A stretch of 64,000 nucleotides of DNA. Source: Paralichthys olivaceus (lineage: Eukaryota; Chordata; Actinopteri; Pleuronectiformes; Paralichthyidae). The stretch covers positions 18,821,501 to 18,885,500 of the forward strand of contig NC_091111.1 in NCBI RefSeq assembly GCF_024713975.1, written 5' to 3'. This document shows positions 5,502 through 44,600 of the stretch, one piece after another. The translations under genes and the position numbers were made by a program. The notes under the pieces were generated by a model that searched no databases, was not told the origin of the DNA, and worked only from the letters and a program-made list of their open reading frames with translations. Position 1 is the first letter of the stretch, and each line of letters starts with the position of its first letter.

Positions 5502-5545
<44 letters not shown>

Positions 5546-22312: not shown

Positions 22313-23440
22313 TCTAAGAGCCGACACCCGGAAGAAAATCACCAAACAAGACAGAAAACATCATAAACATACACATCACTTCATTTTACTGTGAAATACT
22401 CATCAAGGACGATTTGACCTCATCTTAAAAGCTGAGCTGTGATGCAGGTCTCGATCAATAATTCTGGTTTCTATATGATCTTGATAAAGTTCCAGTTATG
22501 TCAGAGGATCCACTGTTGTTTTACACAGCCAGTCAATCATAAAATGAAAAGTGGAACCAGACCAAATCTATGTAGAAGCTCTTGAGCGTCATCTTGTCTT
22601 TTGTGTTAACTTCTTTTAATTTGACGTAATGTTAAATGGATGTATTTTGCTTCCTGTCTATTGTTGCCCATGATGTTGTAAACCCAGCTGCTATACGACG
22701 CAAAACTAATTTCAGATGTGTTCTGACAATAAAGCATCATTGTCATTACACAAGTTAAAACTGTTGTCAAATGACGCCTCCACTTGCTCCTGGTTGAATC
22801 GGTTTGTACGTAAAAACAAAAATGTTAATAGTCATAACTTTCCCACAGCCATATTTGTTTTGTCTTGTTTCATTTCCATGTTCACCATCTTATTATTATA
22901 TGTCTTTATTCTTATAGTTATTATTTGGGCAGAGAATCCAAACTATGAGGATTCTGACTTCATTTGACCATCCTATTATTTTCATGATCTATTAGTCACA
23001 CAGTATTATTATTATTCTCATAAGTAACCATGCATTATAAACATAAGGAGAATGGAAACCCAAAGTAGAAATTATAAAAACCTGGAATAGAAACAGAATA
23101 AATACAGTGGAGTAGTTTAGCGATGAAATGCACGGACAGAGATAAATGCTGCAGTTAAATGCTTTACACCTGACTTCACATTACATGTGTGTATCATTGG
23201 CTTTATCTGACTGCAGCTGTTGTTATGGTTCAATGATCCCCCGCTGCACACTGAGGCAGGAGCACGTGAACGCATCATTCCAGGCTGCGTGGTTAAAACG
23301 ACGTTTGTCTTGAGACGAAGAGAAACTCGAGTGGATGTGAATCTGCAGCGGAGCCACACGTTCATCCTCCGGAGGTTTATTCTCCGGAACATCCAGGGAC
23401 TGTTTCACACGAGCCGCCGCCGCCGTCCATTGTTTCTTAC

Positions 23441-23720
23441 CGGAGGAGGAACAGCGAGGCTCCGTCCTACAGCTCGGTCACAGCCTCCATGTCCTCAGCC
23501 TGAGCCCCCCCGGCCTCCCGCGGCCTCCCGTCCCCGGCTCTGGTGAGCAGCAGGCGGGTCAGACACCCAGCACAGGCCCGGTCCAAGAGGGAAATGATCC
23601 GGAGCGGGTCGGTGTGAGGATCGGAACCGGTCCAGATGTGAGATCCGCTTCTCTTCAGAGGAACGCCCTCCTCCTGCATCTGCTGCTGCCTTCAGGACCT
23701 GTGGGAAATAAGGCCTTTAA
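23441..23720 (-). promoter_or_regulatory. znf512: znf512 non-coding exon 1 and promoter
   Basis: GC-rich block ending on the minus strand at a clear donor (CCTCCTCCG|GTAAGAAAC, exon end 23441), which would splice to the coding exon at 22313. It contains a 70-codon upstream reading frame (starting MQEEGVPLKRSG) that stops just before the donor; since only the recent duplicate shows it too, I treat it as untested 5' UTR rather than a protein. The upstream border is approximate. Confidence 0.55.
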
Positions 23721-23836
23721 AGGTTCAGTGTGCGGGATCCAGTGACATCTAGCGGTGAAGTGTCATGTTGCAGCTGAACACCCGTCACCTCACCCTGTCG
23801 AGAGGAACAGTGAAAAATAAGAAACAGGACCCAATC
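23700..23836. mobile_element. Dispersed repeat fragment upstream of znf512 (left arm)
   Basis: Contains AGTGACATCTAGCGGTGAAG and CTGAACACCCGTCACCTCAC, a motif pair typical of short dispersed fish repeats. The same sequence is present, inverted, at about 32718-32853 in the right arm. Family not identified. Confidence 0.4.
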
Positions 23837-23842
23837 TATCTG

Positions 23843-23913
<71 letters not shown>

Positions 23914-23970
23914 GTCTGTCTGTCCGTCTGTCTATCTGTCCGTCTGTCTGTCTATCTGTCCGTCTATCTG

Positions 23971-24001
<31 letters not shown>

Positions 24002-24014
24002 GTCCGTCTGTCTG

Positions 24015-24061
<47 letters not shown>

Positions 24062-24076
24062 GTCTGTCTGTCTGTC
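23837..24076. repeat. (CTAT)n/(CTGT)n microsatellite, left arm
   Basis: Tetranucleotide array of CTAT with CTGT and CCGT variants. Its right-arm counterpart (inverted, GATA/GACA) is much longer and interrupted, so the arrays have changed since the arms were duplicated. The long Tyr-Leu-Ser frames over it are artefacts. Confidence 0.97.
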
Positions 24077-24283
24077 AGAAGGATGAGCTGAAATAAAAAA
24101 GAAAAAGAACACACACTTTTTGTCGCTGTCTCAAAAATAAACCGTCACTGATGTTAACGACTTCAATCCTCCCAGTTTGTCGTCAGAAACCTTCTGGTGT
24201 CGGTGCCGCCACTTTTCTTCACTTTTCTGTAAATTCACTTCAACAACATTGAAACAGAGGAAACAGGAAAGTTTTACGAGGCT

Positions 24284-24289
24284 TTTATT
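24284..24289 (-). terminator. Polyadenylation signal of copy A
   Basis: TTTATT on the plus strand gives AATAAA on the minus strand about 655 nt after the stop codon; equivalent positions in copies B (31154) and C (40105) are conserved, supporting a long shared 3' UTR. Confidence 0.6.
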
Positions 24290-24943
24290 GATTCACTTTC
24301 AAATGGAACTCTAAGTTTACAGAGACAAGCTAAGACAACATGATGATAACATGAACGTGATCTAAATATTTTAAGCAGTGTTGAGCAGCAAAAGTCATTA
24401 TTCGATAAAAACGTGAGTCTTCATTGGAAACACATAAGATTCCAGTCAAGACAAATTCAAACACGACAGAAAAACATTTCTCAAAAGCATAAACTACTGC
24501 TGACATCAAGTGACTGAAATTAAAAAGTCAATCTTAACATCTGTGTTACAACTATATGACAACTGCACATTGAAATTACTTTTTACGTTTATCTCGATGT
24601 GTTAGTGTTTCATTTCTCTCCCTCTTTGTCTGTCAACTTGATTTGAAGCTAATATTTTTAAGCTGCTCACTTTTCATCTTGCAGTCACTTTCACTTTTGA
24701 CTTCCCATCAGCCACCACCTCTTTCCCAGATATGATAGCTTTGATATAATTACTGTATTTGTAAAGCGCTTATCTAAACAAAGGTAGAGTAAAACTCTTC
24801 AGCCCAGAATCCTTCAATATTAGTTACACATACATTGGCACTTTCTGATTTTAGGACTATGTAATGTTGATAATGTGATTTAATTAGATTTAAGTTTCCT
24901 TCATTTGCTTTTTGTTTTCTCACGTTCACTGTCCTCCATCATG

Positions 24944-27482
24944 TTATTTCAGGAGAAAAATGAGCATCAGAATAATCAGACAAACCACAACAACAAAAAC
25001 CAACAGGATGAGCCAGAACCTGAGATGATTGTTCTCCCGGTCTGAAAGAAAGAAGAAAAACACATCGATGACTCATCAGGTGTAATTCACAAGGTGAACA
25101 ATAATAAAATGACTTATCTTACATACTAGAATATTACAACCAGAGAAATCCTATAATGTAATTGTAGAGATTCCTGACGGACGACATCATGATCGTTGTG
25201 AGCCACATGAACCACCGTGCCGGTGCCCGGCAGCAACGCTGTGCCAGGTAGCAAATCACCGGTGCCAGGATGCAAACTGGACCCATTGCTCGTCGTGACA
25301 TTGAGAAAAAGTTAACTCCCTCATCGTCCACTATTCAGAGACGTCCCCCATCATCCACCCCTGTTTCGGGTTTACATCCTGGCACCGGCTCCACGTGGAG
25401 ATTCCTGGTGGACGAGGTCTCGGTCTTTGCGAGCCACATGAACCACCGTGCCAGTGTCAGGTAGCAAAGCTGTGCCAGGTAGGAAAGCCTCGCCGGTGCC
25501 AGGATGTAAACCCGAAACAGGGGCGGATGATGGGGGACGTCTCTGAATAGTGGACGATGAGGGAGTTAACTTTTTCTCAATGTCACGACGAGCAATGGGT
25601 CCAGTTTGAAACACTAGATGGCGCCCTGAGCCATACTCAACCCATATATAAAGACTCTTTGTGGTAATTGGATATTAAAACCCCCATAAGAACAGTTCTG
25701 TTAATTAGAGAAACACTACAGTCGGTATTAAAAGACACTTTAAAGAAATCTGAAGTTCATAATTCAAGTCACACTTACATCGGGGGATGGACCAGGATTC
25801 CTGCAAGTAAGAAAACGAGAGAAAAACATGAGTGATGATAATCAAACAGCATCGGGAGCAGTCAACAGGAACAGTAATATATCAGTAAATCACCTGTTGA
25901 AGTCCAAGATACTTCCGGAGCTCAAACCGTGCGATATCGTTGTGGTTACACCTCAGCAGACTTCGCTCATGGAACAGACAGCTCACTGTGAGGCGGACGC
26001 GCGGGTCCACCACCCCCAGCCTGTGGTTTTCGGGCGTGACGTAGTCTGGATTATAGGTGTGATACATCACCACCAGGATCGCTGGTTTATCTGCTGTGAG
26101 AACAAAGATAACACAACAACCAACTGAGTCAGACACAAGTGGAAAGTGTGGCTCTCTTTATTCACCTTCTTCTGTATTTTGAATCCAAGCTATAACTACT
26201 TCTTTAAGTTGATATGGCAACGACACTAATCCAGCAGACAGACCAACATTAGCATCGTTTCTGGCCTCCTGATGAACCTAAGTGAAATATGTACTCTCCT
26301 GTTTGCTCTGCTTTGGTCTCCACTGACTCATTTCTCACCAGGAAGGAGTCTGAGGGACGAATCCACTTGGGTTTCAACTCGTGAAGTGATGGGACAGAAG
26401 AGCAGACAGTAGTCACAGTCTTCAGGAGTCTGGACCTTAACGTGTCCAGAGTTTTGAATCATCTGTACAATGTCTTCATGGGTGTTGTTGGTTTTTCCAG
26501 ACAGGACCACAAAGAACTTTTCCCAGGACACTGGAAACGAACCTGAGAAGAAGAACGTGTGTGTCAGCATCATTGAGCTGCATCATGATTTTGTGCAACA
26601 ACACGACCTGAGAGAGACAAAATAAAATCTCATGTATGTATTCTCACACTGAACTGCATCAAAATTCTTTAAATAGATAAACGGACTAAATTCAAAATCT
26701 ACTAAAAAGAGGTGTGGAGTCGGGGTGTCATGTGACATTTGTAATATTATTTATTATATTTTAAATATTTATTTTTGGTTTAATATATCAGAAACACTGA
26801 AACCTAGTCGACCACTCCCCTCTGTCATTTTATATTCCTGCCATACTTTATATTTCTATGAAGAACTGGATATGAAGGATTATTCAGAGATTTGCTGAGA
26901 GACGTTCTAGTTCCTGACTAATAAGATTTATTTTATTTAAAGTCTTTTATCGGTCCCATGACGAGGAAATTCACTTTCACTATTGATTCTCCACAAGCTC
27001 TTTGCTCTTTGCTGCTAAAGGCTCCGGTCACTTCAAGAATCAACACATTTTAAAAAGCAGAAGTGCAGTTTGTTGTTTTTAATACTCGCATGGTTGATAC
27101 ACATAGAAAGACTGACATGTGTCGTCACAGGATACACACATGAACGTGTTTTCTCACCTGGCTGTATCTGAGGCATGTCTCTGAAATACAAACACACACA
27201 TGGAAACTGTCAGTCCACACAAAACAACACAAACTGAACAAAGGTCAAAGAAAACATCACAACACAACAATAAAACATTCACAGAGTCAAACATCAGAAA
27301 CTGCTTCGTCACCGCTGCTCTGCTCGAGCTGTCTGCAGGAGAAAATACCTTCGACAATCTGTAATGAGTCGATGCATGGCGGAGATTCAGCAGCTCACAG
27401 TCTCTGCAGTTATTTCACCTTCATTTAAGAAGCCTACTTACGGTATGGCTTGATAATCTCTCGACGTGGACTCGTTCAACAT
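24944..27482 (-). CDS. Predicted interferon-inducible tail-anchored protein, copy A
   Basis: Family not recognised. Exons on the minus strand: 27482-27442, 27180-27158, 26542-26339, 26093-25894, 25800-25779, 25041-24944; they join in frame to 195 codons. Order: 14-residue start MLNESTSRDYQAIP, DMPQIQPG, then a domain of alternating hydrophobic strands and helices (KFFVVLSGKTNNTHEDIV, DYCLLFCPITSRVETQVD, KPAILVVMYHTYNPDYVTP, VRLTVSCLFHE, CNHNDIARFELRKYL), a short ESWSIPR link and a C-terminal membrane segment of about 23 residues ending Lys-stop. The lack of a signal peptide and the C-terminal anchor imply a cytosol-facing protein on an internal membrane. An ISRE lies 55 bp upstream. Strand order resembles a Rossmann/TIR-like fold, which is inference only. 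All splice sites are intact, so this copy should be functional. Confidence 0.8.
25134..25330 (-). pseudogene. Copy A remnant of alternative terminal exon
   Basis: In copies B and C an alternative last exon starts with a good acceptor (CCCTCAG|ACATG). Here the homologous reading frame (CILAPVICYLAQRCC..., ending NLYNYIIGFLWL-stop) persists, but its 5' part and acceptor have been replaced by the arm of a local hairpin (25274-25389), so normal use in copy A is unlikely. Confidence 0.5.
25274..25607. repeat. Local hairpin: 116-bp inverted repeat with about 102-bp spacer
   Basis: Arms 25274-25389 and 25492-25607 are reverse complements with one visible mismatch (AAACTGGACCCATTGCTCG ... CGAGCAATGGGTCCAGTTT at the outer ends). 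It lies in the intron before the last exon of copy A and consists of that intron's own sequence duplicated in inverse orientation. Confidence 0.9.
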
Positions 27483-27537
27483 CTCTGCCCCACTCTGCTG
27501 CAGAAGAAAGAAAACTCCGTCACAAACTCACTGAAGC

Positions 27538-27549
27538 ACTTTCACTTTC
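27538..27549 (-). promoter_or_regulatory. ISRE / IRF element of copy A
   Basis: Minus strand reads GAAAGTGAAAGT, fitting the IRF-binding pattern GAAANNGAAANN, 55 bp before the copy A start codon. The following leader (GCTTCAGTGAGTTTGTGACG) is the same in copies B and C. Confidence 0.8.
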
Positions 27550-27592
27550 TCATCCCACCACAACAAACTGCTTGTTATCTAATCTCACTTTG

Positions 27593-27607
27593 CCCCCCCC
27601 CCCCCCC
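27593..27607. repeat. Poly-C tract (15 bp)
   Basis: Run of C between the copy A promoter and the orphan promoter fragment to its right. Further C runs mark other rearranged junctions at 27998-28040 and 36982-36988. Confidence 0.95.
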
Positions 27608-27613
27608 TCCCCT

Positions 27614-27990
27614 GTGGTGGGAATGAAAGTGAAAGTGCTTCAGTGAGTTTGTTCTTTCTTCTGCAGCAGAGTGGGGCAGACACGTCTCTTGGAATTCAAC
27701 AGGTGATTTACTGATATATTACTGTTCCTGTTGACTGCTGTTTGATTATCATCCTCCGATCTCAGTGTGACATGAATAATCAACTTCAGATTTCTTTAAA
27801 GTGTCTTTTAATACCGACTGTAGTGTTTCTCTAATTAACAGAACTGTTCTTATGGGAGTTTTAATATCAGATTACCACAAAGAGTCTTTATATATGGGTT
27901 GAGTATGGCTCAGGGCGCCATCTAGTGTTTCAAACTGGACCCATTGCTCGTCGTGACATTGAGAAAAAGTTAACTCCCACATCGTCCACT
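27614..27990 (+). pseudogene. Orphan promoter and fused fragment of the interferon-type gene (copy E)
   Basis: Plus-strand fragment starting with the gene's own ISRE and leader, but where the start codon should be (GGGGCAGAC then ACG) it jumps to the last bases of exon 4 (TTCAACAG) and the following intron. Exons 1-3 and most of exon 4 are missing, exon 5 is lost, and its donor remnant reads CCGATCTCAGT instead of CCGATGTAAGT. It ends in the shared intron sequence before the 43-bp C run. No protein is expected, but the promoter could still fire. Confidence 0.75.
27625..27636 (+). promoter_or_regulatory. ISRE / IRF element of orphan fragment E
   Basis: GAAAGTGAAAGT on the plus strand, 75 bp from the oppositely oriented copy A element, making a divergent pair of interferon-response elements at the palindrome centre. 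Confidence 0.75.
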
Positions 27991-27996
27991 ATTAAC

Positions 27997-27997
<1 letters not shown>

Positions 27998-28040
<43 letters not shown>
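27998..28040. repeat. Poly-C tract (43 bp) at palindrome centre
   Basis: An uninterrupted run of 43 C directly upstream of the copy B promoter. It marks the junction between the orphan fragment and copy B. Confidence 0.95.
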
Positions 28041-28041
<1 letters not shown>

Positions 28042-28059
28042 TGCTCTGTGTTGGGAAGT

Positions 28060-28071
28060 GAAAGTGAAAGT
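28060..28071 (+). promoter_or_regulatory. ISRE / IRF element of copy B
   Basis: GAAAGTGAAAGT, preceded by a partial third unit (GAAGT), 55 bp before the copy B start codon at 28127. Confidence 0.8.
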
Positions 28072-28126
28072 GCTTCAGTGAGTTTGTGACGGAGTTTTCT
28101 TTCTTCTGCAGCAGAGTGGGACAGAC

Positions 28127-30497
28127 ATGTTGAACGAGTCCACGTCGAGAGATTATCAAGCCATATCGTAAGTAGGCTTCTTAAATGAAGGTGAAATAAC
28201 TCCAGAGACTGTGAGCTGCTGAAGCTCCGCCATGCATCGACTCATTACAGATTATCGAAGGTATTTTCTCCTGCAGACAGCTCGAGCAGAGCAGCGGTGA
28301 CGAAGCAGTTTCTGATGTTTGACTCTGTGAATGTTTTATTGTTGTGTTGTGATGTTTTCTTTGACCTTTGTTCAGTTTGTGTTGGTTTGTGTGGACTGAC
28401 AGTTTCCATGTGTGTGTTTGTATTTCAGAGACATGCCTCAGATACAGCCAGGTGAGAAAACACGTTCATGTGTGTATCCTGTGACGACACATGTCAGTCT
28501 TTCTATGTGTATCAACCATGCGAGTATTAAAAACAACAAACTGCACTTCTGCTTTTTAAAATGTGTTGATTCTTGAAGTGACCGGAGCCTTTAGCAGCAA
28601 AGAGCAAAGAGCTTGTGGAGAATCAATAGTGAAAGTGAATTTCCTCGTCATGGGACCGATAAAAGACATAAATAAAATAAATCTTATTAGTCAGAAACTA
28701 GAACGTCTCTCAGCAAATCTCTGAATAATCCTTCATATCCAGTTCTTCGTAGAAATATAAAGTATGGCAGGAATATAAAATGACAGAGGGGAGTGGTCGA
28801 CTAGGTTTCAGTGTTTCTGATATATTAAACCAAAAATAAATATTTCAAATATAATAAATAATATTACAAATGTCATATGACACCCCGACTCCACACCTCT
28901 TTTTAGTAGATTTTGAATTTAGTCCGTTTATCTATTTAAAGAATTTTGATGCAGTTCAGTGTGAGAATACATACATGAGATTTTATTTTGTATCTCTCAG
29001 GTCGTGTTGTTGCACAAAATCATGATGCAGCTCAATGATGCTGACACACACGTTCTTCTTCTCATGTTCGGTTCCAGTGTCCAAGTTCCTTGTGGTCCTG
29101 TCTGGAAAAACCAACAACACCCATGAAGACATTGTACAGATGATTCAAAACTCTGGACACGTTAAGGTCCAGACTCCTGAAGACTGTGACTACTGTCTGC
29201 TCTTCTGTCCCATCACTTCACGAGTTGAAACCCAAGTGGATTCGTCCCTCAGACTCCTTACTGGTGAGAAATGAGTCGGTGGAGACCAAAGCAGAGCAAA
29301 CAGGAGAGTACATATTTCACTTAGGTTCATCAGGAGGCCAGAAACGATGCTAATGTTGGTCTGTCTGCTGGATTAGTGTCGTTGCCATATCAACTTAAAG
29401 AAGTAGTTATAGCTTGGATTCAAAATACAGAAGAAGGTGAATAAAGAGAGCCACACTTTCCACTTGTGTCTGACTCAGTTGGTTGTTGTGTTATCTTTGT
29501 TCTCACAGCAGAAAAACCAGCGATCCTGGTGGTGATGTATCACACCTTTAATCCAGACTACGTCACGCCCGAAAACCACAGGCTGGGGGTGGTGGACCCG
29601 CGCGTCCGCCTCACAGTGAGCTATCTGTTCCATGAGCAAAGACTGCTGAGGTGTAACCACAACGATATCGCACGGTTTGAGCTCCGGAAGTATCTTGGAC
29701 TTCCACAGGTGATTTACTGATATATTACTGTTCCTGTTGACTGCTCCCGATGCTGTTTGATTATCATCACTCATGTCTTTCTCTCGTTTTCTTACTTGCA
29801 GGAATCCTGGTCCATCCCCCGATGTAAGTGTGACTTGAATTATGAACTTCAGATTTCTTTAAAGTGTCTTTTAATACCGACTGTAGTGTTTCTCAAATTA
29901 ACAGAATTTTAGAAGATGTTTTTAAGCAACTAGATTATATGACTGTTCTTATGGGAGTTTTAATATCCAATTACCACAAAGAGTCTTTATATATGGGTTG
30001 AGTATGGCTCAGGGCGCCATCTAGTGTTTCAAACTGGACCCATCGCTCGTCGTGACATTGAGAAAAAGTTAACTCCCTCATCGTCCACTATTCAGAGACG
30101 TCCCCCATCTTCTCCTGTCCCTCAGACATGAGGCCCCTGTTTTGGGTTTGCATCCTGGCACCGGTGATTTGCTACCTGGCACAGCGTTGCTACCTGGCAC
30201 AGCGTTGCTGCCGGGCACTGGCACGGTGGTTCATGTGGCCCGCAACGATCATGATGTCGTCCGTCAGGAATCTCTACAATTACATTATAGGATTTCACTG
30301 GTTGTAATATTCTAGTATGTAAGATAAGTCATTTTATTATTGTTCACCTTGTGAATTACACCTGATGAGTCATCGATGTGTTTTTCTTCTTTCTTTCAGA
30401 CCGGGAGAACAATCCCCTCAAGTTCTGGCTCATCCTGTTGGTTTTTGTTGTTGTGGTTTGTCTGATTATTCTGATGCTCATTTTGCTCCTGAAATAA
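28127..30497 (+). CDS. Predicted interferon-inducible tail-anchored protein, copy B
   Basis: Same family as copies A and C. Exons: 28127-28167, 28429-28451, 29078-29263, 29509-29708, 29802-29823, 30400-30497, joining in frame to 189 codons. The exon 3 acceptor used by A and C (TCTCAG|GT) is mutated to TCTCATGT here; the next AG, 12 bp downstream (TTCCAG|TGTCC), keeps phase, and a further 6-bp in-frame deletion removes two more residues, so the protein is six residues shorter just before the first strand (SKFLVVLSGKT). The C-terminal anchor (FWLILLVFVVVVCLIILM then LILLLK) is intact. It is the right-arm copy of the palindrome, transcribed away from copy A. Confidence 0.75.
30126..30307 (+). 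CDS. Alternative terminal exon of copy B
   Basis: After exon 5 (ending T|GTAAGT) an acceptor CCCTCAG|ACATG at 30126 continues the frame as Y-MRPLFWVCILAPVICYLAQR and so on to a stop at 30305-30307. The peptide is hydrophobic with short repeats (CYLAQRCYLAQRCC) and would replace the usual tail anchor. The same frame is kept in copy C. Use is predicted, not shown. Confidence 0.4.
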
Positions 30498-31153
30498 CAT
30501 GATGGAGGACAGTGAACGTGAGAAAACAGAAAGCAAATGAAGGAAACTTAAATCTAATTAAATCACATTATCAACATTACATATTCCTAAAATCAGAAAG
30601 TGCCAATGTATGTGTAACTAATATTGAAGGATTCTGGGCTGAAGAGTTTTACTCTACCTTTGTTTAGATAAGCGCTTTACAAATACAGTAATTATATCAA
30701 AGCTATCATATCTGGGAAAGAGGTGGTGGCTGATGGGAAGTCAAAAGTGAAAGTGACTATAAGATGAAAAGTGAGCAGCTTAAAAATATTAGCTTCAAAT
30801 CAAGTTGACAGACAAAGAGGGATAGAAATGAAACACTAACACATCGAGATAAACGTAAAAAGTAATTTCAATGTGCAGTTGTCATATAGTTGTAACACAG
30901 ATGTTAAGATTGACTTTTTAATTTCAGAGTCACTTGATGTCAGCAGTAGTTTATGCTTTTGAGAAATGTTTTTCTGTCGTGTTTGAATTTGTCTTGACTA
31001 GAATCTTATGTGTTTCCAATGAAGACTCACGTTTCTATCGAATAATGACTTTTGCTGCTCAACACTGCTTAAAATATTTAGATCACGTTCATGTTATCAT
31101 CATGTTGTCTTAGCTTGTCTCTGTAAACTTAGAGTTCCATTTGAAAGTGAATC

Positions 31154-31159
31154 AATAAA
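31154..31159 (+). terminator. Polyadenylation signal of copy B
   Basis: AATAAA followed by GCCTCGTAAAAC, at the same place in copy C (40105) and inverted in copy A (24284). Confidence 0.6.
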
Positions 31160-31837
31160 AGCCTCGTAAAACTTTCCTGTTTCCTCTGTTTCAGTGTTGT
31201 TGAAGTGAATTTACAGAAAAGTGAAGAAAAGTGGCAGCACCGACACCAGAAGGTTTCTGACGACAAACTGGGAGGATTGAAGTCGTGACAGAAAGTCAGC
31301 TGTAGATTAACAGGTTACATTTATACAACGTGCACGATGTCTCTCTAAAAGTTGGTTTTCATCAGAAGGTTCAGGATGAACAGACGTCATGTATTCTGAT
31401 GACTCTCTAATTATCTGCTCACGTAGATAAAGATTCCATATTTGAATATTTAGTAGAGCTCATACTTCTGCCACTCAATTTAATTTGTTATTTTACTCCA
31501 GTAACGTTTTGAAAAACATTATACAGATTTTATCTTTGACATATTTTGATCACTTTACCTCTAAAATTCCGCTCTTTGAATTTTTTGCTAAACTTGTTTT
31601 ACATTGTGCCTTTTGATTTTACACCACCTTGAATTTACCCTCCAACCACCAAATTCTCATGACTTCTGTTTTTTGTAGTCAAAGTAAAGTTTGTCCACTT
31701 TTTTGAATAAACTTCAAGAGTTCCCAAAGAATCAGACGGACGAGCTGAATCCTGAAGTGGTTAACATCAGTGACGGTTTATTTTTGAGACAGCGACACAA
31801 AGTGTGTGTTCTTTTTCTTTTTCTTTTAGCTCGATAG

Positions 31838-31859
31838 ATAAACAGATAGACAGACAGAC

Positions 31860-31909
<50 letters not shown>

Positions 31910-31927
31910 ACAGATAGACAGACAGAC

Positions 31928-31981
<54 letters not shown>

Positions 31982-32187
31982 ACAGATAGACAGACAGATA
32001 GATAAACAGATAGATAGATAGATAGATAGATGGATAGACAGATAGATAGATAGACAGACAGATAGAAAGACAGGTAGATAGATAGATAGATAAACAGATA
32101 GATAAACCGATAGACAGACAGATAGATAGATAGACAGATAGATAGATAGACAGGTAGATAGATAGATAGATAAACAGATAGATAAAC

Positions 32188-32267
<80 letters not shown>

Positions 32268-32387
32268 GGATAGACAGATAGATAGATAGACAGACAGATA
32301 TATAGATATATAGATAGATAGATAGATAGATAGATAGACAGACAGATAGAAAGACAGGTAGATAGACAGACAGACAGACAGACAAAT
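31838..32387. repeat. (GATA)n/(GACA)n complex microsatellite, right arm
   Basis: Long tetranucleotide array with GATAAACA, GACA and GAAA interruptions, arranged in repeated blocks of about 60-140 bp. Long Tyr-Leu-Ser frames on the minus strand are simple-repeat artefacts. Confidence 0.97.
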
Positions 32388-32530
32388 CAAATCAAATCAA
32401 ATCAAATCAAATCAAATCAAATCAAATCAAAGTTTATTGTCACATGCACCAAATAACTTAGCGTCATCAGAGCAGTGAAATTCTTGTGACCTGGCAGGCA
32501 ACATCTACGCAGTAGACGGGAAATACAAGA
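32388..32530. mobile_element. Dispersed repeat with (AAATC)n tail inserted in the microsatellite
   Basis: About ten AAATC units run into AAAGTTTATTGTCACATGC and CAGTGAAATTCTTGTGACC, typical of the tail of a fish retroelement or SINE. It is absent from the left arm, so it may have inserted after the inverted duplication. Family not identified. Confidence 0.5.
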
Positions 32531-32636
32531 TAAAATAAAAAATAAAAAAAATAAAAAATAATAACATATGACATATAACATAGTAACATATAACATTTAA
32601 CATAACATTTACCATATCGGACAGACGGACAGATAG

Positions 32637-32646
32637 ACAGATAGAC

Positions 32647-32718
<72 letters not shown>

Positions 32719-32720
32719 TG
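32637..32720. repeat. (GATA)n microsatellite, second block
   Basis: Continuation of the right-arm GATA array after the inserted element; corresponds to the inner end of the left-arm CTAT array at 23837. Confidence 0.95.
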
Positions 32721-32852
32721 GGTCCTGTTTCTTATTTTTCACTGTTCCTCTCGACAGGGTGAGGTGACGGGTGTTCAGCTGCAACATGACACTTCACCGC
32801 TAGATGTCACTGGATCCCGCACACTGAACCTTTAAAGGCCTTATTTCCCACA

Positions 32853-35800
32853 GGTCCTGAAGGCAGCAGCAGATGCAGGAGGAGGGCGTTCCTCTGAAGA
32901 GAAGCGGATCTCACATCTGGACCGGTTCCGATCCTCACACCGACCCGCTCCGGATCATTTCCCTCTTGGACCGGGCCTGTGCTGGGTGTCTGACCCGCCT
33001 GCTGCTCACCAGAGCCGGGGACGGGAGGCCGCGGGAGGCCGGGGGGGCTCAGGCTGAGGACATGGAGGCTGTGACCGAGCTGTAGGACGGAGCCTCGCTG
33101 TTCCTCCTCCGGTAAGAAACAATGGACGGCGGCGGCGGCTCGTGTGAAACAGTCCCTGGATGTTCCGGAGAATAAACCTCCGGAGGATGAACGTGTGGCT
33201 CCGCTGCAGATTCACATCCACTCGAGTTTCTCTTCGTCTGAAGACAAACCTCGTTTTAACCACGCAGCCTGGAATGATGCGTTCACGTGCTCCTGCCTCA
33301 GTGTGCAGCGGGGGATCATTGAACCATAACAACAGCTGCAGTCAGATAAAGCCAATGATACACACATGTAATGTGAAGTCAGGTGTAAAGCATTTAACTG
33401 CAGCATTTATTTCTGTCCGTGCATTTCATCGCTAAACTACTCCACTGTATTTATTCTGTTTCTATTCCAGGTTTTTATAATTTCTACTTTGGGTTTCCAT
33501 TCTCCTTATGTTTATAATGCATGGTTACTTATGAGAATAATAATAATACTGTGTGACTAATAGATCATGAAAATAACAGGATGGTCAAATGAAGTCAGAA
33601 TCCTCGTAGTTTGGATTCTCTGCCCAAATAATAACTATAAGAATAAAGACATATAATAATAAGATGGTGAACATGGAAATGAAACAAGACAAAACAAATA
33701 TGGCTGTGGGAAAGTTATGACTATTATACATTTTTGTTTTTACATACAAACCGATTCAGCCAGGAGCAAGTGGAGGCGTCATTTGACAACAGTTTTAACT
33801 TGTGTAATGATGATGATGCTTTAATGTCAGAACACATCTGAAATTAGTTTTGCGTCGTATAGCAGCTGGGTTTACAACATCATGGGCAACAATAGACAGG
33901 AAGCAAAATACATCCATTTAACATTACGTCAAATTAAAAGACGTTAACACAAAAGACAAGATGACGCTCAAGAGCTTCTACATAGATTTGGTCTGGTTCC
34001 ACTTTTCATTTTATGATTGACTGGCTGTGTAAAACAACAGTGGATCCTCTGACATAACTGGAACTTTATCAAGATCATATAGAAACCAGAATTATTGATC
34101 GAGACCTGCATCACAGCTCAGCTTTTAAGATGAGGTCAAATCGTCCTTGATGAGTATTTCACAGTAAAATGAAGTGATGTGTATGTTTATGATGTTTTCT
34201 GTCTTGTTTGGTGATTTTCTTCCGGGTGTCGGCTCTTAGAATGGACCCTGCCCATGTCGGAGGGGATATGTCACCTCTGTATGTGCCAAGAAAAAGAAAG
34301 TCAGCCCAGTCACACCTTAAAAGTGGATCTCTATGTCCAGGTACACACACACACAAAAAAAGACAAGTTCCAATCATCACAATCAGTGTCAACGTGACGG
34401 TGCAACATCACGATTGAACTAGTTTCAGTTTTTCATTGTTTCGGGTTTGAATCTGACTCTCTCCTACAGTTGTTCAGCGAATGCCAGAACGAGACTGTGA
34501 ATCAAATGCAGTTGGATGCACTAAGGTGAGAGTGAATGGATTATACACTACATCCTGCTGGTTTTGCATTTGTGGGGTCGTACCAGTAAATGTTGTGTAT
34601 AAAGACGTGTTTCCTTGTTCTGATTCACACAATCTGTCGACTTCATGCACAGCGTCGCATCTTCACAGTTCTGTACTTGAATGTTTCAGAATGACGAGTC
34701 TCAAGCCCACGGCTCTCTGAAGATGAAACGGACGTACGGTAGAAAAAGGTACGAGAGCGATCAGACATGTGATAGTTCAAGAAGTGACTTGTTTTTGTTG
34801 ATATTAGAATGAATTTAGGGTAAGAACATTTGTTTGAACTTTGAACTTGAACTTATAGCTCGATGATGATGATGATGATGATGAAGAACAGCCAGCGGCA
34901 GTCTAAGCACACGTATAAACTTTTGAACGTCTCCACCATCAGTATTTTCTGACGAGTATAATATTTCTTTTAATATCAGGTACGAGGACCTCCAGAGTGT
35001 TTCCATGGGAACAGTAGATTACCCAACCCCCAGCTGCTCAGTGATGTCATCAGTTGACCTGGCCAATGGGGTGGGCCCCAGCTCCACCCCGGCTAATGTC
35101 AGTGTTTGAATTTATTGTGTAAATCATTTAATATCTGTTCCGCAACCTTCAGGGAACAAACACTCTAAATCTACCACGTTTACACTGGATTGACAACTCG
35201 GCAGCGTAATGAGACATTTAATCCTTGATGCCAGATTTTAATGACTGATTACAAACCACAGAAGAAGAAGCACAAACGAGGCTCTGGGAAAAAAAAAAAA
35301 AAAATCTGATGTGAATGTTTCAGGTTCAGAAACCAGCGGTGAAGCCTCGACGGCTCCGTCCAGTGAGGATCACAAACCTCCAGCTGTCTCCTCTAAGAAG
35401 GAGCCTCCTACCTACGCTCCGGGTGAGAGACACTGAGACACAACATCTCTTCTTTCTATCCTGGACTCTTTTTTTTTCTTGTCACAAATCATTTTCTTGC
35501 TTTAACTTGTTTTTAGTCGATTGTTTTTTATTTTGTGGTTTAATTGAAATCGTCATTGAACGATATTAATGTGACATGAGTTTCAGTTGATGTGCACAGT
35601 CGTTTCAAAACCTGTACGTTTACTGGAGTAAAGAGGTTGAGTCAGTACTTCTACTTTTACTTGTGTGTACTTTTGCCACCTCTTGTCTGAACGGGGCCTC
35701 AATCTTTCCTTTACCACCTCACTCCACCTCTAACTAAATTAACCCGCTAACGTGCACTAACACCACTTCTTCCTCCAGAATGTCTCCACAGAGTAAAATA

Positions 35801-36088
35801 CACAATGTCTGTTTCTGCCGACAGGAAGTCAAGAGGAGCGCTGGCAGCTCCAGATCGTGGCCAAAGGCAGAGTCACCTGTCCCAAATGTAAGAGTGTGAG
35901 CAGGAAGACGGTGGAGGGGCTGAAGAAGCACATGGAGAACTGCAGACTGGTGAGCAGACATTAGACACAAACTAAAGCTCGGTTCACTCCCGACGTTAAC
36001 ATGTGTCCCTGTGTGCAGCAACCATTCACCTGTCAACACTGTGGGAAACAGCTGAAGTCTTCCACAGGGATGAAGTATCACATCATGG
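32853..36088 (+). pseudogene. znf512: Truncated znf512 duplicate
   Basis: Right-arm copy of the 5' half of znf512. Non-coding exon 1 ends at 33111 (donor intact); coding exons 34241-34340, 34470-34525, 34690-34748 and the start of exon 4 (from 34980) match the left copy. Exon 4 then breaks at about 35095 through a 0.93-kb deletion that removes its Arg/Asp repeat part and the next exon; the frame runs into a stop (AATGTCAGTGTTTGA). Exons homologous to 20319-20221 (35324-35422), 19819-19695 (35825-35949) and the first 70 nt of 19625-19539 (from 36019) follow, ending mid-finger 2 at 36088, where sequence switches to an inverted promoter fragment of the interferon-type gene. A promoter and first exons remain, so transcripts with a short N-terminal peptide are possible. 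Confidence 0.85.
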
Positions 36089-36989
36089 CTCTGCTCGAGC
36101 TGTCTGCAGGAGAAAATACCTTCGATAATCTGTAATGAGTCGATGCATGGCGGAGCTTCAGCAGCTCACAGTCTTATTTCAAACACCTTCATTTAAGAAG
36201 CCTACTCACAATATGGCTTGATAATCTCTCGACGTGGACTCGTTCAACATGTCTGCCCCACTCTGCTGCAGAAGAGAGAAAACTCCGTCACAAACTCACT
36301 GAAGCACTTTCACTTTCCACCACAGAGCACAGGGAGGGGGGGAGGGGAGGAGCGAACAAAGTGAGATTAGATAACAAACTGCTTGTTATCTATCTCCCCC
36401 ATCTTCTCCTGTCCCTCAGACATGATTCGGACCCTGTTTCGGGTTTGCATCCTGGCACCGGCGAGGCTTTGCTACCTGACACCGGCACGGTGGTTCATGT
36501 GGCTCGCAACGATCATGATGTCGTCCCCCAGGAATCTCCACGTGGAGCCGGTGCCAGGATGTAAACCCGAAACAGGGGCGGATGATGGGGGACGTCTGTG
36601 AATAGTGGACGATGAGGGAGTTAACTTTTTCTCAATGTCACGACGAGCAATGGGTCCAGTTTGAAACACTAGATGGCGCCCTGAGCCATACTCAACCCAT
36701 ATATAAAGACTCTTTGTGGTAATCTGATATTAAAACTCCCATAAGAACAGTCATATAATCTAGTTGCTTAAAAACATCTTCTAAAATTCTGTTAATTTGA
36801 GAAACACTACAGTCAGTATTAAAAGACACTTTAAAGAAATCTGAAGTTGATGATTCAAGTCACACTGAGATCGGAGGATAAACCAGGATTCCTGCAAGTA
36901 AGAAAACGAGAGAAAGACATGAGTGATGATAATCAAACAGCATCGGGAGCAGTCAACAGGAACAGTAATATATCAGTAAATCCCCCCCC
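36089..36989 (-). pseudogene. Scrambled fragments of the interferon-type gene (copy D)
   Basis: Directly after the broken zinc-finger exon lies an inverted 5' piece of the small gene: micro-exon region, exon 1 and ISRE (36089 to about 36330). Next comes a plus-strand piece of the alternative terminal exon (about 36398-36545) meeting its own inverse at CCACGTGG. Then a minus-strand intron piece follows with a degenerate exon 5 (donor CCGATCTCAGT, as in fragment E) and the end of the intron after exon 4, up to the short C run at 36982. No intact reading frame remains. The shared donor mutation links D and E to one ancestor. Confidence 0.75.
36306..36317 (-). promoter_or_regulatory. ISRE / IRF element of fragment D
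   Basis: Minus strand reads GAAAGTGAAAGT next to the inverted exon 1 fragment. It would direct transcription leftward into the antisense strand of the truncated znf512 copy. Confidence 0.7.
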
Positions 36990-37013
36990 TCCCTGTGCTC
37001 TGTGGTGGGATGA

Positions 37014-37025
37014 GAAAGTGAAAGT
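37014..37025 (+). promoter_or_regulatory. ISRE / IRF element of copy C
   Basis: GAAAGTGAAAGT, 55 bp before the copy C start codon at 37081. No TATA box is seen between it and the ATG. Confidence 0.8.
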
Positions 37026-37080
37026 GCTTCAGTGAGTTTGTGACGGAGTTTTCTTTCTTCTGCAGCAGAGTGGGGCAGAG

Positions 37081-39447
37081 ATGTTGAACGAGTCCACGTC
37101 GAGAGATTATCAAGCCATATCGTAAGTAGGCTTCTTAAATGAAGGTGTTTGAAATAACTCCAGAGACTGTGAGCTGCTGAAGCTCCGCCGAGCATCGACT
37201 CATTACAGATTGTCGAAGGTATTTTCTCCTGCAGACAGCTCGAGCAGAGCAGCGGTGACGAAGCAGTTTCTGATGTTTGACTCTGTGAATGTTTTATTGT
37301 TGTGTTGTGATGTTTTCTTTGACCTTTGTTCAGTTTGTGTTGGTTTGTGTGGACTGACAGTTTCCATGTGTGTGTTTGTATTTCAGAGACATGCCTCAGA
37401 TACAGCCAGGTGAGAAAACACGTTCATGTGTGTATCCTGTGACGACACATGTCAGTCTTTCTATGTGTATCAACCATGCGAGTATTAAAAACAACAAACT
37501 GCACTTCTGCTTTTTAAAATGTGTTGATTCTAGAAGTGACCGGAGCCTTTAGCAGCAAAGAGCAAAGAGCTTGTGGAGAATCAATAGTGAAAGTGAATTT
37601 CCTCGTCATGGGACCGATAAAAGACTTTAAATAAAATAAATCTTATTAGTCAGGAACTAGAACGTCTCTCAGCAAATCTCTGAATAATCCTTCATATCCA
37701 GTTCTTCGTAGAAATATAAAGTATGGCAGGAATATAAAATGACAGAGGGGAGTGGTCGACTAGGTTTCAGTGTTTCTGATATATTAAACCAAAAATAAAT
37801 ATTTCAAATATAATAAATAATATTACAAATGTCACATGACACCCCGACTCCACACCTCTTTTTAGTAGATTTTGAATTTAGTCCGTTTATCTATTTAAAG
37901 AATTTTGATGCAGTTCAGTGTGAGAATACATACATGAGATTTTATTTTGTCTCTCTCAGGTCGTGTTGTTGCACAAAATCATGATGCAGCTCAATGATGC
38001 TGACACACACGTTCTTCTTCTCAGGTCCGGTTCCAGTGTTCTGGGAAAAGTTCGTTGTGGTCCTGTCTGGAAAAACGAACAACACCCATGAAGACATTGT
38101 ACAGATGATTCAAAACTCTGGACACGTTGAGGTCCAGACTCCTGAAGACTGTGACTACTGTCTGCTCTTCTGTCCCATCACTTCACAAGTTGAAACCCAA
38201 GTGGATTCGTCCCTCAGACTCCTTCCTGGTGAGAAATGAGTCGGTGGAGACCAAAGCAGAGCAAACAGGAGAGTACATATTTCACTTAGGTTCATCAGGA
38301 GGCCAGAAACGATGCTAATGTTGGTCTGTCTGCTGGATTAGTGTCGTTGCCATATCAACTTAAAGAAGTAGTTATAGCTTGGATTCAAAATACAGAAGAA
38401 GGTGAATAAAGAGAGCCACACTTTCCGCTTGTGTCTGACTCAGTTGGTTGTTGTGTTATCTTTGTTCTCACAGCAGATAAACCAGCGATCCTGGTGGTGA
38501 TGTATCACACCTATAATCCAGACTACGTCACGCCCGAAAACCACAGGCTGGGGGTGGTGGACCCGCGCGTCCGCCTCACAGTGAGCTATCTGTTCCATGA
38601 GCAAAGTCTGCTGAGGTGTAACCACAACGATATCGCACGGTTTGAGCTCCAGAAGTATCTTGGACTTCAACAGGTGATTTACTGATATATTACTGTTCCT
38701 GTTGACTGCTCCCGATGCTGTTGGATTATCATCATGTCTTTCTCTTGTTTTCTCACTTGCAGGAATCGTGGTCCATCCACCGATGTAAGTGTGACTTGAA
38801 TTATGAACTTCAGATTTCTTTAAAGTGTCTTTTAATACCGACTGTAGTGTTTCTCAAATTAACAGAATTTTAGAAGATGTTTTTAAGCAACTAGATTATA
38901 TGACTGTTCTTATGGGGGTTTTAATATCCAATTACCACAAAGAGTCTTTATATATGGGTTGAGTATGGCTCAGGGCGCCATCTAGTGTTTCAAACTGGAC
39001 CCATTGCTCGTCGTGACATTGAGAAAAAGTTAACTCCCTCATCGTCCACTATTCAGAGACATCCCCCATCTTCTCCTGTCCCTCAGACATGATTCTGCCC
39101 CTGTTTTGGGTTTGCATCCGGGCACCGGCGAGGCTTTGCTACCTGGCACAGCGTTGCTACCTGGCACTGGCACGGTGGTTCATGTGGCCCGCAACGATCA
39201 TGATGTCGTCCGTCAGGAATCTCTACAATTACATTAAAGGATTTTCACTGGTTGTAATATTCTAGTATGTAAGATAAGTCATTTTATTATTGTTCACCTT
39301 GTGCATTACACCTGATGAGTCATCGATGTGTTTTTCTTCTTTCTTTCAGACCGGGAGAACAATCATCTCAGGTTCTGGCTCAGCCTGTTGGTTTTTGTTG
39401 TTGTGGTTGGTCTGATTATTCTGATGCTCATTTTGCTCCTGAAATAA
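37081..39447 (+). CDS. Predicted interferon-inducible tail-anchored protein, copy C
   Basis: Cleanest copy; family not recognised. Exons: 37081-37121, 37387-37409, 38025-38228, 38474-38673, 38763-38784, 39350-39447, joining to 195 codons plus stop. Residues 1-21 are polar; about 29-90 hold KFVVVLSGKTNNTHEDIVQM and CDYCLLFCPITSQVETQVD; about 90-156 hold KPAILVVMYHTYNPDYV, a VRLTVSYLFHEQ strand and CNHNDIARFELQKYLG; 172-194 is an uninterrupted membrane segment (FWLSLLVFVVVVGLIILM and on) followed by a final Lys. This suggests a tail-anchored protein facing the cytosol. Exon 4 has a CAGCAG acceptor allowing a one-residue difference. Two tiny potential exons in the first intron (37209-37218 and 37235-37254) would also keep frame. 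A tandem copy of B: the two match through about 40572 / 31624. Confidence 0.8.
39087..39265 (+). CDS. Alternative terminal exon of copy C
   Basis: Acceptor CCCTCAG|ACATG joins exon 5 in the same phase as the normal last exon and reads Y-MILPLFWVCIRAPARLCYL onward to NLYNYIKGFSLVVIF and a stop at 39263-39265. The tail is hydrophobic and rich in Cys, Arg and Trp. Conservation of the open frame and acceptor in copy B supports a real alternative C-terminus. Confidence 0.4.
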
Positions 39448-41661: not shown

Positions 41662-44600
41662 ATGACTGAAGCAGTTGAAGGTAAAGTATCGTCACATTAA
41701 TGTCAAAGAAGCCTCACCATGATGTTTGATGTGTGTGTGTTTTGTTTTGCACACACACACACTGTGATGTTGTGCGGTCTGGTGTGTGTGGGAGAATTTC
41801 CCGATTGGAAGAATCTAAAAATATGCTGCTATCATGTATCTGCTGTTTGAAATTCAGCTTTGAGGCGTGGTGACGTCTGCAGAGCTGAATGGGATCAGTC
41901 AGCATCAACACTGTGCTGGTGCAGCTTTTATATCGACTGATTCTGATTTTTATACAAGGGAAATTAAATGAGAGGAAAAACGTCACAGAAGAGAGTTTCA
42001 CATGTCACTGAAAGCATTAAACTCTCAAAGGTAAATGTTTGATTTCTTAAACTCGATCTAAACAACCAGATTAACTGAAAACACCGGGATGAATGTGCCG
42101 GCCCCTGAATTATGGGATAACTATTCATTTGTCTGGAGCAAATATGGATTTCTTAAGACAATAATACAAATAGTATCAGGGTTAAAAAACTATGTTGGAC
42201 TCTGCAGAGAGAGTTGAAGATTCTCTGATGAAGACTGAAGCATTTGGTTGAAAGCTCTCAAAACAACAATGCACTTATATCGTTATTTTAGGATATCCAA
42301 CAGTTATTTCTCAACGATGGTGGCGAAACGTTCTAATTTACTTTTGCTGTTTCACTTCAAACTGTGAAGCTGTGGAAGCTTAGACACAAGATAAGATTTT
42401 AAGATGAGAACAGAATTTTGATGCTTCACTTGTTTTCCATTTAAAAACATCTGAGTCAAAAAGCTTTTGACTTTACTGAAGAGAATCTCCTGTAGTTTCT
42501 GGCAGCAAATCAACTAATGACACATTTATTCAGTGAAAACATAAATCAGAGCAAATATAAATTTTTCACTGTTAAAAAGACACAGAGACAAAAAAAAAAA
42601 AGAGTGGAGACAATCGTCTGGTGTTGTCTTTGGTGTTTCAGCGTTTGCCTCAGAACTAATTCAGTCTACAGCGGTAACGAGGCTTCGTGCGCCGGAAGCT
42701 CACCCTCACGTGCGACAGGTACAAAGAGTGAAAGAACTGAGAGAGAGAAACCACCGCAGCTCTGCCAGAGATGCTGCAGCTGAAACTGTGAGAAATCAAA
42801 AAATCGTGGTAATGCAACAGAGAGAGTGAACAGAAAGCAAACAGAGCGGCAAGTTGTAGATCTCTGAGGTTACGATGAAAAGTGTGAAAAAAGTCAGTGG
42901 TTCATAATTAAACTGTGGAGTTTGTCTGTTAGTTAGAAACATTCCACGAAAACAAACTAATTCAGAACCGTTCTAGTTCCACGGGTTTATATTTACAAAG
43001 TGCTGTGATTTGTTTCTTTCTTTAAGTATTTAAAATGTGACGCCTGTTTATTTGTAGACCTGAAGCTCATTTGTCCTCAGCAGATGTTTAAGACTGAGGT
43101 AGAGACGGGAAATCATCAGGTTCAATCACGTGATTATTGGCAGCAGCGTGTTGAACTGACTGATTAAGGAAACGCCATGACGCCTCCTCGCTGTGTTCTG
43201 ACTGAATAGATACAGTAAAGCTCCGTCTGGCCGCTCTGAGCCGAGCCGTCATGGAGACAGAGCAACAACAGAAGCGTTTTTCCCGCCATAAAAGGAGGAG
43301 TTGTGCACGGATGGTCGGTCAAACCGTTTACAGTTGGGTTTGGGAAGTGGCGTTGGACAGAGGCATCGGATCGGAGGGGGAAGGAGAGTTTGTCTGAAAA
43401 GGTTTCACTGGATTCCGTGTGTGATTCTCACGTCTGGTCTCAGGGTTTTGCTGCAGAAGTTTCAGAAGCTGAACAAAGTGCAAACACAAAGACGGTTGTT
43501 TTTTCTCAGTGTGACGAGTCCACTTCATTGAGAGAATCACAGTCTATCGGCTGTATTCTCACCTCAGTAGCAAAACTAATACTAGATGTACCTGATAAAC
43601 CGGCAACGTCCCACTGACACATGGGCTCGACCAATCCTGAGTCAGTCTCAGCTGTCAGTCACCATGTTTCACCATGTTTTAAAAAAAAAACATCAGCGTG
43701 ATACGAACGAGAGAAAACGACAGAAACCATCTTCGAGAAAGTTTCTTCAACGCGCACTTTGACTTTTCACTGAGGCCCACGTCCCATCCACGGAGGAGGC
43801 AGAGTGTATGGCCTACACTGCAGCCAGCCACCAGGGGGCGATCAAGATGATCTCTGTATCTGACCACTGTCTCTTATGCTTCCCTCCTCAGCGCGGTCGT
43901 CCACCACCACCACCATGGTCATCGACAGTAAGAGCGGAGACGCCGGCTCGTCGTCTCAACGGACCCCAAAGAAAACGTTCACAGAGGACGTGCACTCTAC
44001 GTTCAGCTCCCCGCTGGCCTGGATCTTAGTCCTGGCCCTCGTCATCACGTGGTCCTGCGTGTTTGTCATCGTGTTCGACCTGATGGACTACAAGACTCTC
44101 TCAGGTATGAAGCGCTGCTCCGTTCTCAGGTTCACAGGAGTCAGACGCTGTAGAGGAGCGAGAGGGTGAATCTACGTGTTGTGAAGCCACAACATTAAAA
44201 CTGGTAACTGGTTTGATTTCTGTCTGAGTGTCGGCACGTTGCTCTGAGAACCAAACACACCTGTGTGGCATCCAGGTGCATTTAAGTTGATCTGTGACGA
44301 GCAGGATTCTTGAAGCAACACGATGCAACTTTTTCACCTCAAACCAGCAGCTTGATAAAAAGAGTTTGATGTGTGAGTGTGAACGTGGAGAGAGTTTCCT
44401 CCTTCACTCTCCGAGCGTCTGTTCTCTGTAACTCTGCTGACTGGGTTCGATCTCCAGCTTCAACTGTCACAATCGGCTCCCGACAGTTGAAGAGCGAAGC
44501 TGACCTGTGATCAGTTTCAAAACACTGAGAAGTTTTTAAGAACTAGAGTTTATCTCCAACGTTCAGCGGGAAACTTTAAAAACATGAAGAACTCTGAACA

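Follow-up and report, generated by a model that had tools for sequence, protein, structure and literature searches.

A triplicated fish gene family with an interferon-type promoter element and a predicted tail-anchored branch

We analyzed a stretch of 64,000 nucleotides (nt) from the genome of Paralichthys olivaceus (NCBI RefSeq assembly GCF_024713975.1, contig NC_091111.1; C19:18821501-18885500 in our numbering of the contigs), hereafter the window, which carries three copies (A, B and C) of one protein-coding gene. The original prediction, made from the sequence alone, had described them as three intact six-exon genes encoding proteins of 189-195 residues. We rebuilt the gene models independently from the sequence, reading the region at 24.0-40.5 kb, and recovered the same architecture: all frames are open, all five introns of each copy have GT-AG boundaries, and the intron phases (2, 1, 1, 0 and 1) are identical across copies. 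Copy A lies on the minus strand, from the ATG at 27482 to the end of the stop codon at 24944, and encodes 195 residues; copies B (28127-30497, 189 residues) and C (37081-39447, 195 residues) lie on the plus strand. The six coding exons measure 41, 23, 204 (A and C) or 186 (B), 200, 22 and 98 nt. In copy A, exon 1 (27442-27482) carries the ATG and exon 2 (27158-27180) follows; exon 3 (26339-26542) encodes the first half of a putative alpha/beta domain, with the motif FCPITSR, and exon 4 (25894-26093) the second half, with the motifs KPAILVVM and LFHE; after exon 5 (25779-25800), exon 6 (24944-25041) encodes a C-terminal membrane segment, assigned from the model and hydropathy, and the stop codon. 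The corresponding exons are found at 28127-28167, 28429-28451, 29078-29263, 29509-29708, 29802-29823 and 30400-30497 in copy B, and at 37081-37121, 37387-37409, 38025-38228, 38474-38673, 38763-38784 and 39350-39447 in copy C; in both, the last exon again encodes the membrane segment and stop, assigned on the same grounds.

Copy B differs from the others in exon 3. The acceptor of A and C is lost there (AG to AT; 29066-29078), so that the next AG, located 12 nt downstream and present in A and C too, is needed; the exon also carries a 6-nt in-frame deletion. Because of this downstream acceptor and the in-frame deletion, copy B encodes 189 residues and keeps its frame. An AATAAA is found 655, 657 and 658 nt after the stop codons of the three copies, and from the gene models we infer that all three are transcribed. 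The copies are approximately 97-98% identical over the main aligned blocks, or 94-95% when long gaps are counted. The family is thus triplicated as originally proposed, with three intact copies, but copies this similar add no independent evidence on their promoters.

All three proteins end in a stretch of 23 residues without charged or strongly polar residues, preceded by basic residues and followed by a single, final Lys. The 19-residue Kyte-Doolittle maximum reaches 3.64-3.83 at this segment and stays at or below 0.97 in windows well before it, in all three copies, and hydropathy gave no N-terminal signal (maximum over the first 40 residues, 0.58-0.88). The C-terminal membrane segment ending in Lys is therefore the only strongly hydrophobic segment of each protein, as had been claimed. 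With one segment within the approximately 30 C-terminal residues and no other, by hydropathy in each of the three copies, a tail anchor is a plausible assignment. Given the strong hydrophobicity of the anchor, the endoplasmic reticulum (ER), rather than mitochondria, would be its most likely location.

The exact sequence GAAAGTGAAAGT, which matches an IRF/interferon-stimulated response element (ISRE), is found in each of the three copies with its end 55 nt upstream of the ATG, in agreement with the original prediction (copy A, 27538-27549, minus strand; copy B, 28060-28071, plus; copy C, 37014-37025, plus). This 12-mer occurs five times in the window: at the three promoters and in two promoter fragments of the same family (27625-27636, plus; 36306-36317, minus). 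The expected number per 64 kb is 0.034 under a first-order and 0.019 under a second-order Markov model. Since the copies are recent duplicates, the presence of the 12-mer in three promoters counts as one event, not three. Upstream of the element, A can be aligned to B and to C for 13 nt, and B to C for 32 nt; as the alignment of A ends so close to the element, the promoter shared by the three copies should be near it.

We searched the host assembly (588 Mb in 25 contigs) for further members. The window family returned its own three copies and one distant match on contig C21 (E = 9.0e-4), where the domain is encoded in two exons followed by a short last exon (138-residue model). With the C21 protein as query we identified a further locus, at C19:9.31 Mb (E = 7.0e-7), together with copy A (E = 7.8e-7); with the 9.3-Mb protein as query we recovered C21 (E = 4.9e-7) and the first halves of the three window copies (E = 4.2e-4 to 1.6e-3), and no further credible locus in the host genome. 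As the search scores the best candidates only, these three loci are a lower bound. A match on C20 (E = 0.08), with one internal stop, was set aside. The C21 and 9.3-Mb proteins are 34-35% identical to copy C, and all loci have in common the signature FCPIT[ST][RQ].E[ST] and [KQ][PK].I[LV]V.M, followed by a strand, H-E, Cys and N..A; the window and C21 genes also agree in the phase of their third intron. The significant similarity and the common motifs argue that the window, C21 and 9.3-Mb genes share one domain family.

The three loci differ in what surrounds the domain. The C21 protein has no membrane segment (hydropathy maximum, 0.79) and is modelled as soluble. Upstream exons of the 9.3-Mb gene encode a region of approximately 130 residues, from MTSLLEQIRL to ESEANK, which lies N-terminal of the domain and looks helical by our reading of the sequence; neither modelled part of this gene, whose splice pattern is provisional, has a membrane segment (maxima of 0.92 and 1.29). 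Among the three loci found, the anchor is thus confined to the window clade, and the proposed tail anchor, supported by hydropathy in the window copies, does not extend to the C21 and 9.3-Mb models. The 9.3-Mb gene also contains three small exons in three tandem repeats (positions 5381-8007 of the fetched locus), the first two of which carry only the start of the domain exon. Searches of viral and prokaryotic collections with an alignment (A1) or a five-sequence profile (A5) of the family confirmed no relatives there.

Both distant paralogues carry the exact 12-mer near their 5' ends. In the C21 gene, GAAAGTGAAAGT lies 485 nt before the ATG in the same orientation, and a donor-like CAGTGAGT is found 88 nt after the start of the element; in the 9.3-Mb gene it is reversed and lies 597 nt upstream of the first ATG of the model. 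We compared the 5' regions of the loci, taking 800 nt around the ATG of copy C, 1,100 nt for C21 and 840 nt for the 9.3-Mb gene, the latter including only 40 nt before the element. In all three pairwise comparisons the best shared match was the element itself: 14 bp between copy C and the 9.3-Mb gene (E = 0.005), 12 bp between copy C and C21 (E = 0.07), and 12 bp between C21 and the 9.3-Mb gene (E = 0.08-0.10). The flanks have no longer match in common, and therefore the 12-mer was not carried there by a longer repeat. Counted across seven stretches (62,802 bases), the 12-mer has two occurrences, one at each of these paralogues, and it is absent from the 42,901 of those bases that lie in other stretches. 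Its chance rate is 1.5e-4 to 2.7e-4 per 500 bp, so that a chance occurrence at both paralogue loci appears very unlikely, even allowing for spans chosen post hoc. The exact element at both distant paralogues suggests that interferon-type control is most likely a trait of the family, and it strengthens the earlier claim of an interferon promoter, with an exact site near the 5' end of all three loci found.

The same data bear on the explanation that this is a non-immune, tail-anchored family, the GAAAGTGAAAGT sites of which are due to chance or derived from repeats. The three window copies count only once, and a looser form of the element, GAAANNGAAA, is common, with 21 sites in the window when both strands are counted and 11 in the 62,802 fetched bases. 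The exact 12-mer, however, is present at all three family loci found and, across the window and the seven stretches, exclusively at family promoters or their fragments; with no longer flank match between loci to suggest a repeat, we regard this explanation as improbable.

We compared the proteins with known families. Pfam searches at E up to 10 gave no match for copy A, the C21 protein or the 9.3-Mb domain; we discarded sub-threshold matches to UPF0004 (0.11 for the domain plus tail of B, 0.24 for C) and, on the membrane segment of copy C, to MRAP (0.14) and RAMP4 (3.4). Copy C had no match in PADLOC or among solved structures, nor did its domain in NCBIfam. Three solved-structure matches of the C21 protein (E = 0.61-0.84) are not credible, and the sole match of profile A5 to solved structures, a DNA alpha-glucosyltransferase (E = 0.82-0.83), was likewise set aside. 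The 9.3-Mb relative (positions 4711-4987 of the locus) matches RASA1 in the Protein Data Bank with E = 1.5e-4; we rejected this match as due to chance, because RASA1 was matched neither by copy C nor by the C21 protein or profile A5, and because RasGAP is all-helical. Overall, the members scanned have no credible match in Pfam, NCBIfam, PADLOC or solved structures. Literature searches by name, peptide words and topic showed the family in none of the papers listed. The PANTHER family PTHR34488 (SI:CH211-245H14.1-RELATED), filed under an uncharacterised zebrafish name that we found in no paper, would be a candidate relative, since it contains short proteins from fish in which an FCPI..SR motif and a KP.ILV strand occur.

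The original prediction had also proposed a strand/helix-alternating domain with a Rossmann/TIR-like fold. We modelled exons 3 and 4 separately with AlphaFold2, from an alignment of the three copies without distant relatives, and obtained poor single-exon models, with a mean predicted local distance difference test (pLDDT) of 50.3 and 60.7, respectively. The order in these low-confidence models is strand, helix, strand, an unclear part with a short strand, strand, short helix, strand, strand and helix; their best Foldseek matches (E = 5.0 and 0.84) were not used as evidence. Alternation of strands and helices is thus seen in the models, and they are compatible with a Rossmann-like sheet, but a TIR fold is not established: no Pfam TIR model matched copies A, B (domain plus tail) or C, the C21 protein or the 9.3-Mb protein at E up to 10, in a search where the filters of HMMER drop most matches above approximately 0.1.

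These observations weigh on a second alternative, in which the domain would be a TIR/SLOG-like (flavodoxin-like) nucleotide-binding or NAD-consuming enzyme, acting at the membrane as a sensor or executioner. Its likeness to TIR and Rossmann-like immune domains would consist in the strand/helix alternation, in an order of strand-helix-strand-(helix)-strand for which the models provide weak support, and in an S..E motif that follows the second strand of the models. The modelled C-terminal order (strand-strand-helix), in contrast, differs from the order in TIR domains, and the conserved acidic residue of the motif is a single Glu. Considering also that none of the five members scanned matches a TIR-clan model in Pfam at E up to 10, that neither PADLOC (copy C) nor NCBIfam (its domain) gave a match, and that the best Foldseek E-value is 0.84, we judge such an enzyme unlikely.

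A comparison with fish virus-induced genes such as Gig1 (grass carp reovirus-induced gene 1) had been suggested as well. Gig1 is also a fish family with interferon-type control (in our case predicted from the element), local tandem copies and a similar range of lengths. In salmon, however, one study describes Gig1-like genes of two exons, a small first one and a large second one that contains the entire reading frame, encoding 222-240 residues (PMC12247413). The window genes have six coding exons, two of which encode the domain, and 189-195 residues. Since this gene structure contradicts that of Gig1, at least as described for salmon, and with architecture as the sole basis of comparison, we consider a relationship to Gig1 highly improbable.

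The divergence between the window copies provides a further line of evidence. In the three-way alignment, 24 of 582 exon columns are variable, compared to 50 of 2410 columns in introns and 3' flank (Fisher p = 0.007); gap columns were excluded, as were 75 columns from the promoter, of which 4 are variable, in every case in B. Exons are thus approximately twice as divergent as introns between copies, which is suggestive of adaptive change, though not proof of it. Of the 21 gaps listed in this alignment, just one, of 6 nt, touches an exon. The reading frame is thus preserved, although the rate of change in the protein is no lower than that of the non-coding DNA. With the frame kept and exons varying more than introns, the pattern would fit diversifying selection in a contest between host and virus, and with three sequences it is only suggestive of it.

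Altogether, it is very probable that these genes belong to a fish family that is interferon-stimulated and has one tail-anchored branch. Copies A, B and C would be duplicates of one gene from a family switched on by IRF/ISGF3-type factors, the members of which would share a cytosolic alpha/beta domain of approximately 127 residues. Proteins of the window clade would be attached by their 23-residue C-terminal anchor, past which a single residue follows, so that this domain would lie on the cytosolic side of a membrane, most likely that of the ER. The domain would come in three or more formats: with the anchor, soluble, or with an N-terminal helical region joined to it. Acting at a membrane, the family would most likely serve the antiviral response as effector or regulator, perhaps via contacts between the domains of different members. 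A specific antiviral role of this kind is, in our view, reasonably probable.

Several observations weigh against this interpretation. When taken alone, the similarity of the second domain half of the 9.3-Mb gene to the other loci is not significant (E = 0.10-1.2; 0.67 from the C21 query). Judged on E-value alone, both 12-bp matches between flanks are weak, and the spans in which the element was sought (approximately 500-600 bp, either orientation) were picked after the sites had been seen. An acceptor-like TTTTCTTTCTTCTGCAG is found 15 nt before the ATG of the window copies, so the element could sit within an intron, and an exact match to a 12-mer would not by itself prove function. As for divergence, the excess of exon change is modest (pairwise p = 0.10 for A-B, 0.048 for A-C and 0.005 for B-C). 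The count of 19 replacement and 3 silent changes, with codons gapped in B and two neighbouring codons excluded, does not depart from neutrality (p = 0.10-0.19), since random mutation would give 0.68-0.73 replacement and 0.03-0.04 stop changes.

A third alternative concerns the direction of the effect: the proteins could be membrane-anchored negative regulators or adaptors of antiviral signalling, rather than direct effectors. The 9.3-Mb relative joins the domain to a helical-looking region of approximately 130 residues, a layout used by adaptors, and soluble and anchored versions could compete. MAVS is a tail-anchored antiviral adaptor, and it resembles the window proteins in having a cytosolic domain and a C-terminal membrane segment in an antiviral context; unlike MAVS, the window proteins are much shorter and have no CARD or other credible Pfam domain. 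The 9.3-Mb upstream region, moreover, matches no death-fold model in Pfam (AAA_22 alone appeared, at 0.027, below the cut-off) and no solved structure credibly (best E = 0.25). We see a negative regulator or adaptor, rather than a direct effector, as possible but less likely than not.

A domain that credibly matches nothing in the libraries searched is preceded, at three distinct loci of a single genome, by an identical predicted control element. One branch is predicted to be fixed to a membrane and was recently triplicated. Tests can focus on a handful of genes and a single DNA element, and a comparison of the soluble with the anchored members would constitute a natural experiment on the purpose of the anchor. 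More tentatively, this may be an undescribed fish antiviral system, in which one new alpha/beta domain is used in three formats under the same interferon element, with the anchored copies multiplying and changing under pressure from viruses. Listing the interferon-stimulated genes of teleosts and testing their roles is presented as open work in a 2026 review (PMC13030082).

The arrangement of the copies results from two kinds of duplication. Self-comparison of the window revealed an inverted duplication of approximately 8 kb, in which 19.6-27.6 kb (minus) mirrors 28.0-36.1 kb (plus). The left arm (19555-27562, minus strand) contains copy A and the 5' part of a zinc-finger gene, and the right arm (28021-36089, plus strand) contains copy B and a truncated copy of that gene. 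The zinc-finger gene, a neighbour of copy A, has a Pfam match below threshold and is presumably znf512-like. The arms are 99.4% identical between 19555-20549 and 36089-35094, 98.6% between 21478-23932 and 35086-32620, and 94.2% between 25395-27562 and 30277-28047; the right arm ends at 36089 and lacks approximately 0.9 kb found in the left arm (20550-21477). Copy C, in turn, is a direct copy of B, 8.95 kb apart and 97.0% identical over 3.6 kb.

Two fragments of the gene accompany the intact copies. One, at 36088-36317 on the minus strand, is a piece of a fourth copy that retains the promoter, exon 1 and the start of intron 1 only; the other, at 27613-27680 on the plus strand, is a promoter fragment with the exact GAAAGTGAAAGT, joined to a piece of exon 4 and intron 4. 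A protein search of the window found no copies beyond these. The fragments lie within two regions (27594-27996 and 36088-36985) next to runs of C, where bits of this gene's promoter, exons and introns are pieced together in differing orientations; these regions look like scars of repeated rearrangement. A run of approximately 40 C at 27998-28040, directly upstream of the copy B promoter, could be a weak spot of the assembly. Long tetranucleotide repeats of the GATA/GACA type flank copies A and B on either side (23800-24090 and 31840-32720). Further along the window, at 43864-44169, we found a membrane segment with a Pfam Asp-B-Hydro_N match above the cut-off, followed by an extremely acidic open frame of 648 residues (48357-50303); this is probably triadin.

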